From: a virus
Reading direction: 5' to 3' (one strand)
Virus record (IMG/VR): IMGVR_UViG_3300034072_000931
Span: 1-51,596 of that record
Length of the DNA stretch: 51,596 nucleotides
A model generated the notes under the pieces. The model made no database searches. It worked only from the letters and a program-made list of their open reading frames with translations, and had not been told where the DNA came from. Both the position numbers and the translations under genes were made by a program. How positions within the stretch are numbered: the first letter of the stretch is position 1; each line of letters starts with the position of its first letter. Shown here one piece after another: positions 28,598 to 47,605 of this stretch.

Positions 28598-28907
28598 CCC
28601 CTACGCCAAGGTCTGCGAGGCGCTCCACGCCCTGCTCACCCGGAAGCGGAATTACTACGGGTGTCCTGACGAGGGCCCGCTGGATAACGCGCTGGGTGTG
28701 GCGGAACAGGGGATTGAGCCGTGGGTTTACCAGCTCGCCAGGATCGGGGAAAAGGTCCGACGCTGCGGCGGGCTTCAGCGGGCAATAGTCAATGGCAGCC
28801 GAGACATCCAGATCAAGAAGACGTTAATGGACATCGCCGGCCACGCGGTTGTGGCGCTGGCGATCCTGGAACATGAGGAGAAGGCGAATGAATATGAAGG
28901 TGATTAG
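28521..28907 (+). CDS. conserved-looking hypothetical protein
   Basis: 128 residues; the start has an excellent GGAGGAAACAG site. V-C-E-A-L-H-A-L-L-T-R-K-R-N-Y-Y-G, N-A-L-G-V-A-E-Q-G-I-E-P-W and K-K-T-L-M-D-I-A-G-H-A-V-V-A-L are features of a widespread phage family related to nucleotide-modification-associated proteins. The exact reaction is unknown. Overlaps the previous gene by 77 nt. Confidence 0.65.
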   Translation: MTHTTTPASGPNMDEYSRLPGSDHGDPYAKVCEALHALLTRKRNYYGCPDEGPLDNALGVAEQGIEPWVYQLARIGEKVRRCGGLQRAIVNGSRDIQIKKTLMDIAGHAVVALAILEHEEKANEYEGD

Positions 28908-29217
28908 TTGGCTGTTGAGGCACCGCGACCTGCTGCTGGCCGTGATTGCCGTGGCCAAGAAGTTCGACCGGGACGGGACCTACATCTCCCAGTGGGAGGT
29001 GGTGGACGAGATCGCCCGCTTGGTGATCCCGGTGTTTGAGAAAGAGGGCGAGGATGTCTCCGCCCTCTTGGCCCAAGACACATGGGATTCGGATGAGAGC
29101 ACCGCCTTCGCCTTGGGTGCCGAGGTGCATGCGATGGGCGTGGACTGGCAGTCCCTGATCCAGGTGGTCATCCCGATCTTGATCGCCATTCTGAGGGCGC
29201 TGTCTCCCGATGAGTGA
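28888..29217 (+). CDS. hypothetical protein with apolar ends
   Basis: 109 residues. W-L-L-R-H-R-D-L-L-L-A-V-I-A-V-A near the N terminus and L-I-Q-V-V-I-P-I-L-I-A-I-L-R-A-L near the C terminus flank a charged middle. The ends could be membrane-associated helices. It directly precedes the subtilisin gene with an 8-nt overlap. Confidence 0.6.
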   Translation: MNMKVISWLLRHRDLLLAVIAVAKKFDRDGTYISQWEVVDEIARLVIPVFEKEGEDVSALLAQDTWDSDESTAFALGAEVHAMGVDWQSLIQVVIPILIAILRALSPDE

Positions 29218-30148
29218 CTTCGTTCATCTCCCCCCCTACCGCGTTGACCTCCAGCATGTACCACATTCGGTACAGGATGGGGTGGACTGGGCTGTCGCCA
29301 GCTATGGCATCCCCGGTCTGTGGTCGCAGACCAAAGGCGAGGGGGTGACGGTGGCGGTGATTGATTCCGGCATCGCCCCGCACTCTGCGCTGGTGGTGGC
29401 GGACTATCGCAACTTCTCCACGGACTCCGAGGTCTACGATTCTCTGGGCCATGGAACGCACGTAGCAGGTGTCATCGCCGCCAAGAGCGGGCTGGCCAAG
29501 GGCATCGCACCGGGCGTGAAGCTGGTGAGCTACAAGGTGCTGGGTCACAGCGGCATGGGCAGCAACGAGGCCGTGGCCCATGCCGTCCAGCATGCGGCGG
29601 ACGCCAGGGTGGACATCGTCTGCATGTCTCTTGGTTGTGCTAGACCAAACGCCCAGGTCCATGCGGCGATCCGCAACGCCACTGCGGGAGGGACGATTGT
29701 CGTCTGCGCCGCCGGCAACGACGGAGGTGCGGTCAACTACCCGGCGGCATTCACAGAAACCATAGCCGTGGGTGCGGTGGATCGGGACGGGAACATCTGC
29801 CAGTTCTCCTCCAGGGGCAAGGAGATCGTTGTCGCTGCGCCGGGCCAGGACATCACTTCCACCTGGCTGGCAGATGGGTATGCCACCCTCTCGGGGACGA
29901 GCATGGCGGCGCCGTTCGTCACGGGCGTGCTTGCGTTGTGGGTGGCCGACGCCAAGGCAACAGGCCAAAAGGTCTGTCACGCCACCGCTGTGAAGGCACT
30001 GGGTCAGACATGCCGTGACGTTGGGGAGAAGGGCAAGGACCCTGAGTACGGCTGGGGTCTGATGGACCCGCACAAGCTGCTGAACTACACCGCCACGGCC
30101 AGCGTGGAGGGTGTCACCATCTTTATTCCGGGGGCAAAGATCCTATGA
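29210..30148 (+). CDS. subtilisin-like serine protease (family S8)
   Basis: 312 residues. The full catalytic triad is visible: Asp52 (A-V-I-D-S-G), His81 (G-H-G-T-H-V-A-G) and Ser231 (G-T-S-M-A-A-P), with oxyanion Asn170 (A-A-G-N-D-G). No signal peptide, and only ~35 residues before the catalytic domain, so it resembles intracellular subtilisins without a large propeptide. Complete and apparently active. It heads a run of membrane/exported small proteins and a second, papain-like protease. Targets could be virion proteins, host proteins or the host envelope. Confidence 0.93.
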   Translation: MSDFVHLPPYRVDLQHVPHSVQDGVDWAVASYGIPGLWSQTKGEGVTVAVIDSGIAPHSALVVADYRNFSTDSEVYDSLGHGTHVAGVIAAKSGLAKGIAPGVKLVSYKVLGHSGMGSNEAVAHAVQHAADARVDIVCMSLGCARPNAQVHAAIRNATAGGTIVVCAAGNDGGAVNYPAAFTETIAVGAVDRDGNICQFSSRGKEIVVAAPGQDITSTWLADGYATLSGTSMAAPFVTGVLALWVADAKATGQKVCHATAVKALGQTCRDVGEKGKDPEYGWGLMDPHKLLNYTATASVEGVTIFIPGAKIL

Positions 30149-30342
30149 ACGCCATGCAGATTTTGAGTCTCGTCGTTGTCGCCGCCACGGTGGCCTACCT
30201 GTATCTCCCGGCAATCAAATGGCCCGTCGCAAAACAAAACAGCATGGCGGACATCGAAGACGTTCTCCGCATCCGAGACAGCAACCAAAGCCCCGAGGTA
30301 CGCAAGGCATGCACGCAGCTCTTGCAAGCACTTCTCCAGTGA
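30145..30342 (+). CDS. single-pass membrane protein
   Basis: 65 residues, ATGA overlap with the protease gene. One N-terminal membrane helix (I-L-S-L-V-V-V-A-A-T-V-A-Y-L-Y-L) and a ~40-residue charged cytoplasmic or periplasmic helix. Placement between two proteases suggests an anchor, regulator or holin-like partner (inference). Confidence 0.65.
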   Translation: MNAMQILSLVVVAATVAYLYLPAIKWPVAKQNSMADIEDVLRIRDSNQSPEVRKACTQLLQALLQ

Positions 30343-30740
30343 AGCACTTGGTGTTAGCAGCAGCGGTGGCGTTCGCCGCTCTGCAATTCATTCCAGGCCC
30401 CCAGCGGTCAGTCGTAACCGGCCCCGTCGCACAGGCCCTCGCATCCGCCTCCTCCACGGATCGGGCTGTCGTCGCCAGTGTCTATGCTGCACTGGCGGAC
30501 TTGATCGAACGGGACGGTGGACGCTTGATCCCCACCACTGCCGTGTGGCGCGCTATCTACGCCGACGCGCTCCGGCTGGCCGCTGGGGGGACCGACCTGC
30601 CGGGCAAGTACCCGGGCCTGGACAAGGCAGTCGAAGAAGTCCTGGCCCAGCACTACCCGCTGGACAACCTGCCAATCGACAAGGTGATGGCCGGCAAGAT
30701 CGCCGCCGGTTGCCGGGCCGTGGAGAAGCAGTGTGAGTGA
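30339..30740 (+). CDS. exported or membrane-anchored small protein (GTG start)
   Basis: 133 residues from GTG in a GTGA overlap. K-H-L-V-L-A-A-A-V-A-F-A-A-L-Q-F is a signal peptide or anchor, followed by a helical soluble domain with T-D-L-P-G-K-Y-P-G-L near residue 86. An earlier start in the same frame would be internal to the membrane protein gene. Family not recognised. Confidence 0.65.
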   Translation: MKHLVLAAAVAFAALQFIPGPQRSVVTGPVAQALASASSTDRAVVASVYAALADLIERDGGRLIPTTAVWRAIYADALRLAAGGTDLPGKYPGLDKAVEEVLAQHYPLDNLPIDKVMAGKIAAGCRAVEKQCE

Positions 30741-31683
30741 CGATTTCTCCAACCCGATCCAGTTGCTGTCCGCCTATGAGGACGGCCTCACTGGTTACAT
30801 CGACAGCCCCCGTGACCGCGGGCTGTTTTCCGAATCACAGAAGCAACCTGTCTACTCCGAGCCCAACATCATGGGAAGCGGGCAGGGGCAGCGTGCATTG
30901 CTGTGGCAGTACACGCAAGCACTGGATCCGCTTTCGTTCACTGAGCGCCAGACCACGGGAGATTGCACAAGCCACTGTTCACGCAACGCCCGAGACACAA
31001 CGCGAGCGACACAGATTCTTGTTGAGCGCCGGCCCGAAGACTTCATTGTGCGCGGAGCCACGGAGCCAACGTACGGCGCCCGAGGGCACTCCGGACAGGG
31101 CATGTCGCCGGCCAGGGCTGCGATGTTTGAGAATGAGGTCGGGTTCCTGATTCGCAAGAAGTACGACCCGGTCGATCTCTCTGTCTACAAGTCCAGCATC
31201 GGCACCAACTGGGGTGGGCGCGGGGTGCCCGAGGATGTGAAGGCGTTGTGTCGGCAGAACAAGGTCGGCATTATCCGCCAGCTCACCCGCGTGCAGGATG
31301 CAGTCGATGCGTTGTTCAATGGCTACTGCGTAGCGTCCGGTCAGTTCGCGGCGTGGTCGCCCACGCCCAACAAGGATCACATTCATCCGCGCGCTGCCGG
31401 CGGATGGAGCCACGCGATGGCTACGGTTGGGATGGACTTCACGCGAAAGTTCTGGCCATTCGATGTGTTCTTCATCGCAAATAGCTGGGGCGCGTGGTGT
31501 CAGGCGCCCAAGGAGTGGCCAGCCGACTACCCCAAGTACCTGCCTGGAATGATTGTGACCAAGGCCGAGGACTGGGAGGTGTGCGTCCGAGGCGGGGACT
31601 GCTACGCCTATGGATCGGTGGACGGCTACCCTCCCCAGAAACTCCCCGACTACGGCACCGTAGGACTACTTCGCCATGACTGA
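30733..31683 (+). CDS. papain-like (C1-type) cysteine protease
   Basis: 316 residues from GTG. Oxyanion Gln73 and probable nucleophile Cys78 (R-Q-T-T-G-D-C-T-S), His227 (G-G-W-S-H-A-M) and Asn250 (F-I-A-N-S-W-G-A-W) give the C1 order Q-C-H-N. No prodomain inhibitor is evident and no signal peptide is seen. It follows a signal-peptide protein and ends in an 8-nt overlap with a Cys-rich gene. A bacterial-virus C1 peptidase beside a subtilisin is unusual. Confidence 0.8.
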   Translation: MSDDFSNPIQLLSAYEDGLTGYIDSPRDRGLFSESQKQPVYSEPNIMGSGQGQRALLWQYTQALDPLSFTERQTTGDCTSHCSRNARDTTRATQILVERRPEDFIVRGATEPTYGARGHSGQGMSPARAAMFENEVGFLIRKKYDPVDLSVYKSSIGTNWGGRGVPEDVKALCRQNKVGIIRQLTRVQDAVDALFNGYCVASGQFAAWSPTPNKDHIHPRAAGGWSHAMATVGMDFTRKFWPFDVFFIANSWGAWCQAPKEWPADYPKYLPGMIVTKAEDWEVCVRGGDCYAYGSVDGYPPQKLPDYGTVGLLRHD

Positions 31684-31933
31684 CATCCTTGCGTGGATTG
31701 CGCTGCTGTTTCCGCAGCCCGTGATGGTCGGGCCTGTCGCCGTGCATGCGGCCTATGTCATACACACCCAGCAGGCCGACACGCCGGCCAAGGAATGCTG
31801 CGGCGAATGCCAGGGCGGGTTCATCACCCACGGCGACGGACACAAGACCCCCTGCCCTTGCCCACCGGACTGCAAATGCAAGGCGACCAAGTCGGTGCTG
31901 TGCCCAGACGGGAAATGCGAGCAGAAGAAATAG
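31676..31933 (+). CDS. cysteine-rich small membrane-associated protein
   Basis: 85 residues. An apolar N terminus (I-L-A-W-I-A-L-L-F) is followed by E-C-C-G-E-C, G-D-G-H-K-T-P-C-P-C-P-P-D-C-K-C-K and C-P-D-G-K-C, about ten Cys in 45 residues. The CxxC-like pairs suggest a zinc or disulfide knot of the DnaJ zinc-finger style. Role unknown; it sits directly after the cysteine protease. Confidence 0.65.
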   Translation: MTDILAWIALLFPQPVMVGPVAVHAAYVIHTQQADTPAKECCGECQGGFITHGDGHKTPCPCPPDCKCKATKSVLCPDGKCEQKK

Positions 31934-32289
31934 TCACCCAGTGCCTGCGGGACACTGGGGCCCGCGGGATCAGCAAGCACTCTGAAGAGATCGCCCTCCT
32001 CGGGTTGATCTACTCGTCCCTGGCCTGCCGGCAACGCCGCGGCCTGATGCGGAAGGCGTTCCGCCAAGGGCACCCCGAGGTCGGATCAGTCTTTATCGTC
32101 CTGGTCCTCCCCATCCTCATCTCGGTCATCAGCGCATGGATTACCCGATGGATTTTGAATCGGACGGATTTGAAGACGATACAGAGTTCGGCGTACGACG
32201 CATTAACCGAGCTATCGCCGTCTACGACGGCCACACTCACATCTATCAGTACCCCCCAGAGCAAGCCTCCCGAGCCCAGCGAATGGTGA
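31915..32289 (+). CDS. membrane protein
   Basis: 124 residues. N-terminal helical region (E-I-V-T-Q-C-L-R-D-T-G), then a long membrane helix near residues 58-82 (F-I-V-L-V-L-P-I-L-I-S-V-I-S-A-W-I) and a Ser/Thr-rich C terminus that overlaps the next gene in another frame. ATG 31915 overlaps the previous gene by 19 nt. Confidence 0.6.
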   Translation: MRAEEIVTQCLRDTGARGISKHSEEIALLGLIYSSLACRQRRGLMRKAFRQGHPEVGSVFIVLVLPILISVISAWITRWILNRTDLKTIQSSAYDALTELSPSTTATLTSISTPQSKPPEPSEW

Positions 32290-32372
32290 AACTCCATGTG
32301 GAAGAGGGCACCCTGCATCCCTACGCAGGGCTCATGTTGGTGAACATGATTCGGAGGAGCGATGGAAGTTGA
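32136..32372 (+). CDS. hypothetical acidic protein in overlapping frame
   Basis: 78 residues, overlapping the membrane protein by 154 nt. Residues look protein-like throughout: D-F-E-S-D-G-F-E-D-D-T-E-F-G-V-R-R, then Y-D-G-H-T-H-I-Y-Q-Y and a helical end. Its 3' end overlaps the next start by 11 nt, continuing the operon pattern. Confidence 0.5.
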   Translation: MDYPMDFESDGFEDDTEFGVRRINRAIAVYDGHTHIYQYPPEQASRAQRMVKLHVEEGTLHPYAGLMLVNMIRRSDGS

Positions 32373-32583
32373 AGTCTGGATGATCTGCATCACTGCGGCC
32401 TGCGCCGTGATCCCGTGGGCATTCTCCATCCATGCCAAGGTGGCCGTGATAGCCAGTTCGGTGCAGGATTTGCCCGATGTAGTCGATGAGCTGCGCGAGG
32501 TTCTCCGCGAGCATGAGCATCGACTGGACGAACATGCGAGTCAGATCGAAGCTCTCAAAGAAACGACAAAACTACGTCGTTGA
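32362..32583 (+). CDS. membrane protein with coiled-coil tail (spanin/holin-like layout)
   Basis: 73 residues. M-E-V-E-V-W-M-I-C-I-T-A-A-C-A-V-I-P-W-A is an N-terminal membrane helix; residues ~37-70 are a charged coiled coil (V-D-E-L-R-E-V-L-R-E-H-E-H-R-L-D-E-H). This is the shape of some i-spanins and tail-associated membrane proteins, but no family match can be stated. Confidence 0.65.
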   Translation: MEVEVWMICITAACAVIPWAFSIHAKVAVIASSVQDLPDVVDELREVLREHEHRLDEHASQIEALKETTKLRR

Positions 32584-33151
32584 GTACATGCCCTTGGCCT
32601 CAATGCTGGCCAAGTTCTTCGTCCAGACCAGACCATCTTGGCAGCGTGGCGTGCTGTTCCCGGACCTCCAGTCCGAGGGATTCTTGGCACTGACCAAGGC
32701 CGCCCGCACGTACGATGAGAAGCGGCTGCCCTACCCCAAGGCCTACTTCGCCCGCGCGTGCATGAACGCCATGTACAAGTGGATCAAGAAGTCCACGCGC
32801 ACGCCATGCGAATGGAAGGTATCGCTGGCCGAGGCCGAGGAGTTCCTGCCGGTGCTTGAGCATCCGGACTATCTCCGGCTGGCGATTGACGACCTGCCGC
32901 CAGAGGACAAACGACTGGCCGAAGACCGGTTTGAATCGTCGCTCACCCTGCGTCGAATAGCAGAGGGGCATCAGATTTCAGTTCGGCTAGCCTCTGTTCG
33001 GAGCCGCGACCTAGCCAGAAGGATTGCCGCAGCTTTGGATATCCGGCTTCCGCCGCCCGCACCAGGGACCGAACGTCCGCGACATGATAGTAGGGTGAAC
33101 CGTAGCTCCTCACCGAGGGCTTCCGGCACTCCACGCAAGCGCAAGCGATAG
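32534..33151 (+). CDS. sigma-70-like RNA polymerase sigma factor
   Basis: 205 residues. N-terminal R-Q-N-Y-V-V-E-Y-M-P-L-A-S-M-L-A and F-P-D-L-Q-S-E-G-F-L-A-L-T-K-A (residues ~12-55) match sigma region 2, followed by A-Y-F-A-R-A-C-M-N-A-M-Y-K-W. A region 4-like helix-turn-helix lies at ~131-160 (S-L-T-L-R-R-I-A-E-G-H-Q-I-S-V). The ~35-residue tail is basic and disordered. It probably redirects host polymerase to phage promoters. The last 209 nt are also coding on the other strand. Confidence 0.65.
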   Translation: MRVRSKLSKKRQNYVVEYMPLASMLAKFFVQTRPSWQRGVLFPDLQSEGFLALTKAARTYDEKRLPYPKAYFARACMNAMYKWIKKSTRTPCEWKVSLAEAEEFLPVLEHPDYLRLAIDDLPPEDKRLAEDRFESSLTLRRIAEGHQISVRLASVRSRDLARRIAAALDIRLPPPAPGTERPRHDSRVNRSSSPRASGTPRKRKR

Positions 33152-42516: not shown

Positions 42517-43350
42517 ATGGCCTGCCAGTGCAACTGCTGTAAGGGTGCCTGCTGCTACGAATTCGCCGGCACGCCCACATGCAGCTTTGAAACCTGCGAG
42601 GACTGCGAGGACCTGAATGGGGACTGGCAGGGTCCTGGCACGGAATGCACGGGCGTCAGTCTGGACGAGTGCCCCTGCGACCCGCCTGCGGATCACACGC
42701 AGTGCGAGAAGTGTGTTGACGGGACTCCCACGGAACGCTGTGCCGAGGGCGAGAACTGCTGCGATGGGGTCTGTCAGGAGGAGGCGTGTCCGAACTACGT
42801 TTGTGTCGATGCTCTTGGGGACTGCGGCGGGGAGTATGAATGCGTAGTGGAAACCAACCCGCCCCAGGCAGGCTCTTTCCCATGTGACAGGACCTTGCCT
42901 GAAAATCCGCTCACTGGGAACACGGTATGCGCTGGAGGAACTCCGACGCAGGTGACGGTCACGGTGTCTGGGGTGACCTGCAACTCCGGTGACGCTGGAA
43001 CGGACGCCGAGGTTGAGGGCCTGATCAACTCGTCGTACGTGGTGGACTTGGACTGCGTTGCTGGGGACTCGGCTACGTTTACCTTCACCGGATTCACCAT
43101 CACAGCTAGCGTAGAGTTTGACTACAACACGGCGCCCGGCGGGCAGACGGCCAGCATTCAGATTTCTGGCACGTCCCAGAACGGGTTCTCCGTGACGGGG
43201 TCCGCATCCTACGACGAGGACGGGCCAGCCAGAATCCCACACCAGTGCAGCCTCCTCTTGGATTGCAGTGATTTCAGTGGAACCGCAACGGTGGCTTCAA
43301 ACTTCGGGGTATTGGGTGGAACAGCAACCATCTCCGTCACGGGAGTGTGA
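42517..43350 (+). CDS. cysteine-rich protein with beta-rich C-terminal domain
   Basis: 277 residues. The first ~115 hold about 25 Cys in pairs such as C-N-C-C-K-G-A-C-C-Y and C-E-D-C-E-D, with E-N-C-C-D-G-V-C; this suggests a disulfide- or metal-rich extracellular module. The C-terminal ~160 residues are Thr/Ser/Gly-rich strands (T-V-T-V-S-G-V-T-C), as in adhesive beta-sandwiches. No signal peptide. A virion surface decoration is possible. Confidence 0.65.
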   Translation: MACQCNCCKGACCYEFAGTPTCSFETCEDCEDLNGDWQGPGTECTGVSLDECPCDPPADHTQCEKCVDGTPTERCAEGENCCDGVCQEEACPNYVCVDALGDCGGEYECVVETNPPQAGSFPCDRTLPENPLTGNTVCAGGTPTQVTVTVSGVTCNSGDAGTDAEVEGLINSSYVVDLDCVAGDSATFTFTGFTITASVEFDYNTAPGGQTASIQISGTSQNGFSVTGSASYDEDGPARIPHQCSLLLDCSDFSGTATVASNFGVLGGTATISVTGV

Positions 43351-46591: not shown

Positions 46592-47605
46592 ATGGCAGAC
46601 GAAGAAGTTCTTAACGAAGCGCCGGTTTCCGAGGCTCCCGTAGCGGAAGCGCCCGTTTCTGAGGCGCCGCAGGCGTCCGGTTCGGAGTACGGCGGGTTCA
46701 CCACCCCGTATGAGGCCTTCAAGTCGCTCCCTGACTTCGCCAATCAGGATGACCTGACCATCGCCCGCAACCTGTACCAGGCGTACAGCGGGTACGGCGA
46801 GGCCCAGCGTCAGCTCCAGCAGTACCAGAGCATCATCCCCCATGCCACTGAGTACTTGCAGAACAAGCAGGCCTATGAGCAGTGGAAAGCCGCCCAGGCT
46901 GCCGCTCAAGCTCCGAAGCCTGCCGAGAAGCCGAAGTGGTGGAACCCGCCCTCCGTCGATGAGTCCTACAAGTCATGGATCATCCGCGACCCGTCCACGG
47001 GCAAGGAGGTCATCGCCCCCGACGCCCCGTATGAGGCGAAGGTCGCCCTCCAGAAGTACCAGGCCTACACGGCCGACTTCGCCCGCAAGTTCGTCACGGA
47101 TCCCGAGAACACCCTCAAGCCCTTCATTGAGGATGTCGCCCGGCAGAAGGCCGAGGAACTCGTTCAGGCCCAGCTCGGGCAGTACACGGCCAAGAACTAC
47201 GTGCAGTCGCTGGAGCAGCAGAACGCCGACTGGTTGTACGACCAGACCGGCCAGGTGAGCCAAGAGGGTCGCGCCATCCAGGCGTATATCCAGCAGGCTT
47301 CCGAGATCGGGATTTCCAACCCCGAGGCCCGCTGGAAGTACGCCACTTCGATGCTCCAGCGTGACCTGCTGAATCTCCGCTACCAGCAGCTCTCCGCCGC
47401 ACCGGCGCAGGGTTACGCCGAGCCGGCTGCGCCACCGGCACCCCCGGCTGACCCAGTGGCACAACAGAACATGCAGTTCCTTCGGGAGCGTGCAACCCGG
47501 ACCCCGAATCGGAGTGCAGGAACCAGTGAGCCTCGGGCACCGCGCCAGAGGATGAGTTTTGAAGAACGGCTGAAAAGCCAGCTCGTAACTGATGGAGTCA
47601 TCTGA
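46592..47605 (+). CDS. capsid scaffold-like protein
   Basis: 337 residues. Acidic Ala/Pro/Glu-rich start with repeated S/V-E-A-P-V, long helical and Gln-rich middle (Q-R-Q-L-Q-Q-Y-Q), basic helical end with R-M-S-F-E-E-R-L-K. This composition and its location immediately before the capsid gene are typical of scaffolds, which fill the procapsid and leave before packaging. TGATG overlap with the capsid gene. Confidence 0.75.
   Translation: MADEEVLNEAPVSEAPVAEAPVSEAPQASGSEYGGFTTPYEAFKSLPDFANQDDLTIARNLYQAYSGYGEAQRQLQQYQSIIPHATEYLQNKQAYEQWKAAQAAAQAPKPAEKPKWWNPPSVDESYKSWIIRDPSTGKEVIAPDAPYEAKVALQKYQAYTADFARKFVTDPENTLKPFIEDVARQKAEELVQAQLGQYTAKNYVQSLEQQNADWLYDQTGQVSQEGRAIQAYIQQASEIGISNPEARWKYATSMLQRDLLNLRYQQLSAAPAQGYAEPAAPPAPPADPVAQQNMQFLRERATRTPNRSAGTSEPRAPRQRMSFEERLKSQLVTDGVI

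Follow-up and report, generated by a model that had tools for sequence, protein, structure and literature searches.

The locus described here raises the question of why a phage would keep 2 different proteases in one chain of overlapping genes with membrane proteins, and whether such a gene set could serve for lysis. The window, that is, the whole stretch of DNA analyzed, is a linear IMG/VR virus record of 51,596 nt (IMGVR_UViG_3300034072_000931) whose genome carries an integrase and recombination genes (exonuclease VIII-like, Erf, SSB, and helicase). The cassette (28888-32583) runs in one direction with its genes chained by short overlaps, and includes a subtilisin-like protease (SUB) and a papain-like protease (PAP) in the same chain as 6 predicted membrane or exported proteins. 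The ORFs named in an earlier, sequence-only reading are all present in this chain and their positions hold, with one correction: the gene starting at 31915 runs without a stop to 32289 and overlaps the gene at 32136-32372 by 154 nt. The features are the following:

28888 to 29217, plus strand: TM1, 109 aa, with a C-terminal membrane helix; shares its last 8 nt with SUB and is conserved in loci with SUB and PAP.
29210 to 30148, plus strand: SUB, a subtilisin (S8), intracellular-subtilisin-like, with D52/H81/S231 and an N-terminal LPPY.
30145 to 30342, plus strand: TM2, 65 aa, with an N-terminal membrane helix.
30339 to 30740, plus strand: SP, 133 aa, an N-terminal anchor or signal followed by an all-helical domain; a family-wide neighbour of PAP.
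30733 to 31683, plus strand: PAP, a papain-like (C1A-like) cysteine protease with Q73/C78/H227/N250.
31676 to 31933, plus strand: CYS, an anchored or exported Cys-rich protein (C..C.G..I.HGDGH.T.CPC).
31915 to 32289, plus strand: TM, 124 aa, with a strong internal membrane helix; its last 154 nt are shared with the next gene in another frame.
32136 to 32372, plus strand: g35, a small soluble protein, conserved.
32362 to 32583, plus strand: HOL, holin/XhlA-like, with one N-terminal membrane helix and a probable coiled coil.
32588 to 33151, plus strand: SIG, sigma-70-region-2-like, directly after HOL, with conserved linkage.

Membrane segments were predicted by hydropathy in the 6 genes starting at 28888, 30145, 30339, 31676, 31915, and 32362, in agreement with the membrane and exported proteins previously noted around both proteases. 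The dN/dS ratio was well below 1 in all ten cassette genes, indicating purifying selection; because of this, and because the 2 proteases are linked in 63 of 63 loci (see below), the cassette genes are not chance ORFs. Substitutions in the segment shared by TM and g35 (32136-32289, 154 nt, different frames) showed no third-position bias, and both frames look constrained, which suggests dual coding.

Both protease assignments of the sequence-only reading held. SUB, for which a complete Asp-His-Ser triad had been proposed, matches Pfam Peptidase_S8 (PF00082, E 1e-49, 169.8 bits versus a cut-off of 21.8), and its Asp52, His81, Ser231, and Asn170 are invariant in 7 sequences. In the PDB, the sequences closest to it belong to intracellular serine proteases from the subtilisin family (7e-44), and hydropathy revealed no signal peptide, as there is no hydrophobic N-terminus. 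The N-terminal sequence VHLPPYRV is invariant in 7 sequences, and LPPY or LPPF occurs in 66 of the 80 loci that were collected with SUB as the start, distant loci included. In intracellular subtilisins (ISPs), a LIPY/F pro-peptide blocks the active site, and the motif follows the pattern [LVI]-[IFLV]-P-[YFH] (PMC6220982). The LPPY of SUB departs from this published pattern by the Pro at position 2, and SUB is therefore called ISP-like here and not filed as an ISP. A SUB-like protease was also observed in a distant AT-rich virus (34% GC; L151, 5983-8717), where genes for a small membrane/coiled-coil protein and for a sigma-70-like protein come after it and PAP is absent.

In PAP, the proposed papain-like Gln-Cys-His-Asn residues (Gln73, Cys78, His227, and Asn250) are invariant in 27 sequences, as are D77 and the NSWG motif, at identities down to 26%. 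The window protein gave no Pfam match, PF00112 included, and the PAP of a relative (G017) scored 16.7 bits (E 2e-4) against PF00112 (Peptidase_C1), under the cut-off of 20.7; since this cut-off was not reached, PAP is called C1-like. A PAP profile gave no meaningful match among PDB sequences, no match to PAP was found in cultured phage records, and no signal peptide was seen by hydropathy. Structure prediction, which the earlier reading had recommended, produced an AlphaFold model (AF2, pLDDT 82) that Foldseek matched to C1A enzymes (probability 1.00, TM-score 0.4-0.6), the closest PDB structure being xylellain (3ois). By motif order and predicted fold, PAP is a papain-like (C1A-like) protease, for which thiol protease activity is predicted. 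The model search also led to some phage proteins that have a matching fold and bear the names peptidoglycan-binding, muramidase, or lysin A. Within the cassette, dN/dS is lowest in PAP (0.03-0.04 versus the 2 closest relatives). In 2 relatives (L025, 8558-10720, and L023, 2-2161), an intein-like insert with LAGLIDADG-type motifs sits exactly between D77 and C78, with the catalytic Cys78 as the +1 residue. It is at the invariant sites of important enzymes that inteins tend to persist, and an insert directly before Cys78 fits an essential PAP activity.

A search of related viruses for the same neighbourhood, also suggested earlier, found SUB and PAP linked in 63 of the 63 IMG/VR loci with a SUB of at least 50% identity and a contig reaching the PAP site, a set that includes near-identical contigs and does not represent 63 independent lineages. 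The cassette was nearly always whole in these loci, with g29, TM1, TM2, SP, CYS, TM, g35, HOL, and SIG in the same order. Searches with PAP as the start led to viruses further removed, with identities of 35-41% and contigs of up to 116 kb. In these, SUB and HOL were not detectable, CYS and SP were mostly kept close by, a SIG homologue (c7) lay near PAP, and PAP-CYS-SP stood beside ribonucleotide reductase genes. A profile built from the window clade alone recovered many SP and CYS proteins of these viruses. Homology was also considered between TM1, TM2, TM, and HOL and the small membrane proteins that distant viruses encode next to PAP; hhalign found none, so that only their position is common. 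In these comparisons, the widely conserved core consists of PAP, CYS, and SP, to which SUB is added in a clade-specific way.

Several further observations were made in the collection. An HNH/zinc-finger-like gene lies between SP and PAP in L002 (11531-12188) and in the same place in L011, L013, L014, and L015, and is absent in the window and in L006; it was considered as a hidden endolysin and rejected, as by eye it looks like an HNH/zinc-finger nuclease. Viral-looking contigs with PAP occur in MAGs labelled SAR202, Lokiarchaeota, and Flavobacteriales (G021 C7/C13, G023 C398/C400, and G022 C3), labels that were set aside as host indications given probable viral contamination of the bins. A record of 117.8 kb (G002), considered as a prophage with host flanks, instead appears to be 2 related phage genomes joined in one contig. 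In the window itself, positions 42517-43350 encode a very Cys-rich protein that had no match among plasmids and whose GACC...C pattern resembles planctomycete secreted proteins.

SP and CYS are anchored or exported in most relatives. The AF2 model of SP (pLDDT 93) had no fold match in the PDB, and the SP alignment was too weakly conserved for a scan of the collection. A pattern search found no lipobox in SP or CYS of the window; the SP of L031 and the CYS proteins of L029, L037, and L046 do have one. No spanin pair (outer-membrane lipoprotein and inner-membrane partner) was recognisable in the window. SP-like and CYS domains appear to be fused in one anchored protein in L016 (7560-8318) and L017 (7558-8346), the SP part matching weakly, and CYS homologues of L019 (10940-11626), L033 (10936-11508), and L034 contain a thioredoxin-like WCGPC motif. 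HOL matched the holin family phrog_1296 weakly (4.2e-5) and XhlA at 0.006, below the cut-off, and SIG matched Pfam sigma-70 region 2 just under the cut-off (E 3.6e-5).

The sequence-only reading had found no recognisable endolysin, and had named an endolysin elsewhere in the genome, or relatives with the proteases as virion maturation or prohead enzymes, as evidence that would count against it; both were looked for, and neither was found. Comparison with relatives shows that the window lacks approximately 7 kb between its last and first genes; read in the relative G001, this part contains genes for a large terminase and for a P22-like portal, as well as genes resembling fibre genes. Pfam searches found no endolysin in the 85 proteins from the window outside the cassette and from this missing part. 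In 20 to 22 related records, Phage_lysozyme, Amidase_2, SLT, CHAP, Amidase_3, NLPC_P60, and Peptidase_M15_3 gave no match while positive controls did, a negative result that covers these 7 families, so that other or unknown families could escape it. The virion proteins g10, g14, g15, and g16, which match nothing, could conceal a peptidoglycan hydrolase from some undescribed family. A prohead protease gene usually adjoins the portal and major head protein genes, and neither SUB nor PAP adjoins the portal in the missing part or the MCP-like gene of the window (g72, at 47605); the cassette adjoins replication genes, not the terminase. Most predicted membrane-helix proteins, called by a simple hydropathy threshold, lie in the cassette in the window and in 4 near-complete relatives (Fisher p 7.5e-4, 6.4e-5, 2.0e-3, and 1.6e-4 in the 4 relatives), and the few outside it are either large and virion-like or products of small ORFs that are not shared.

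Genes in relatives of cassette parts bear on the host. A virus with PAP-CYS-SP (G016; L076, 11265-13768) encodes 2 neighbouring DUF1501 proteins (among the 25 of 53 Pfam families that were listed, which for endolysins in this virus is an incomplete negative), one of which has its best plasmid match in the planctomycete Singulisphaera acidiphila (35%, 4e-61), and a PSCyt1 planctomycete cytochrome domain was found in L152, which carries a SUB-like protease with LPPF and a sigma-like gene. These genes make a planctomycete host plausible. Older work, quoted in PMC3035269, describes a planctomycete envelope of protein that is rich in Cys and Pro and linked through disulfides, and later work shows lysozyme-sensitive peptidoglycan in planctomycetes as well (PMC4432640). 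The planctomycete-type genes fit an inferred opening of a protein-rich host wall by proteolysis, but this peptidoglycan speaks against it.

Altogether, a lysis cassette is the best-supported role of the gene set. We tentatively propose, at slightly short of even chances, that it is the host-exit (lysis) module of a large group of tailed phages with genomes of approximately 60 kb, which have an integrase and, in a relative, a portal like that of P22, with PAP, and SUB as an accessory, in the endolysin's place. This proposal is based on the concentration of membrane proteins in the cassette, the holin-family match, the absence of any endolysin family searched for, and the constant linkage of the proteases; on PAP being the most constrained gene, with active-site inteins in 2 relatives and a papain-like model closest to xylellain; and on the lysin-named phage fold matches and the SP-CYS and thioredoxin-CYS fusions. 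The lysis role suggested earlier is thereby strengthened, while its second part, that the proteases themselves open the envelope, is something we infer: if no hydrolase is hidden in these genomes, the proteases would stand in place of the endolysin. Against this proposal are the weak holin match, the position beside replication genes, the possible hidden hydrolase in virion proteins, the distant viruses in which PAP-CYS-SP adjoins ribonucleotide reductase genes and neither SUB nor HOL homologues are detectable, and the lysozyme-sensitive peptidoglycan of planctomycetes (PMC4432640).

In the proposed lysis pathway, SIG may turn the operon on late, and PAP and SUB, in which no signal peptide is seen, would build up in the cytoplasm in a restrained state. 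SUB would be restrained by an LPPY pro-peptide, in the manner of LIPY/F in intracellular subtilisins, and PAP perhaps by the conserved extension at its N-terminus. Breaching the inner membrane would fall to HOL and the remaining small membrane proteins, after which PAP, aided by SUB, would cut envelope protein or peptidoglycan stem peptides in the usual position of an endolysin, the substrate being either a protein layer or a stem peptide. SP and CYS, anchored on the outer face of the inner membrane, would receive, reduce, or activate PAP. The boldest form of this proposal is lysis with no hydrolase at all, in which a zymogen SUB and a redox-assisted PAP, both released by holin-like proteins, dismantle a disulfide-linked planctomycete protein layer. 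PAP-CYS-SP would in that case be an undescribed module, widespread in aquatic viruses, for exit or for breaching the envelope; we consider this form unlikely.

Other explanations fit part of the data. PAP could be an endolysin of a new family that, like NlpC/P60 or CHAP enzymes, cuts stem peptides; lysis would then proceed by peptidoglycan hydrolysis with SUB as an accessory. Its position in a holin-like cassette, its fold matches to phage proteins with peptidoglycan-binding, muramidase, or lysin A names, and the reality of planctomycete peptidoglycan (PMC4432640) agree with this, but the NSWG motif and the nearest solved folds are those of C1A proteinases, and neither a CHAP or NlpC match nor a cell-wall-binding domain was recognised, and we judge it unlikely. 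It is distinctly unlikely that the proteases serve an intracellular take-over, degrading or processing host or antiphage proteins in the cytoplasm while the membrane proteins form a separate, co-transcribed lysis set: the proteases are tightly linked to the membrane proteins, and SP and CYS, which regularly accompany PAP, have an anchor or are exported in most relatives, even though SUB is intracellular-subtilisin-like, similar proteases occur in many Bacillus phages, and a signal peptide was seen in neither enzyme.

Virion-borne entry proteases or enzymes processing structural proteins would agree with the module of L031, which by eye lies near baseplate/tail-looking genes; in the window clade, however, the cassette is not beside head genes, and membrane-anchored neighbours are poor virion components, which leaves this very unlikely. 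To surface remodelling or superinfection exclusion in lysogeny, carried out by the proteases and anchored partners, we give the lowest probability of all: the partners are exported and anchored and an integrase is present, but the lysis proteins would then need another place, and hardly any other membrane protein is encoded.

We found no description of such a two-protease cassette in the literature. It is real and strongly conserved in more than 60 related uncultivated phage contigs, and apparently undescribed. If our reading is true, these phages exit by proteolysis or by a new family of peptide-cutting lysins, breaking the rule that a recognisable peptidoglycan hydrolase is encoded by phages with double-stranded DNA, and showing how viruses breach an unusual, probably planctomycete, envelope. 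PAP-CYS-SP would then serve as a marker module for uncultivated viruses, and new enzymes against envelopes that resist ordinary lysins would become available.

Among known systems, SUB shares with ISPs (S8A) the catalytic domain, the absence of an export signal, a short N-terminal extension, and the spacing from L-x-P-Y to Asp (LPPY 7-10/D52 in SUB; LIPY 6-9/Asp49 in PMC6220982), and differs in the invariant C-terminal GVTIFIPGA tail of its near relatives and in its location within an operon of phage membrane proteins. An S8 domain like that of SUB (27-43% identity) is also present in the subtilisins that phages of Bacillus, Moorella, and Brevibacillus encode, whereas PAP was found nowhere in that phage collection. 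PAP shares the Gln-Cys-His-Asn order, NSWG, and the predicted fold with papain-like C1A proteases such as xylellain (3ois), and differs from them in having no sequence match to PDB chains or Pfam C1 match above the cut-off, in its own conserved N-terminal part, and in the regular company of the SP and CYS genes. Compared with holin-endolysin-spanin cassettes, proteases are present here and a recognisable peptidoglycan hydrolase is not, the window has no recognisable spanin pair, and the likeness lies in a compact operon that joins holin-like with anchored or exported proteins.
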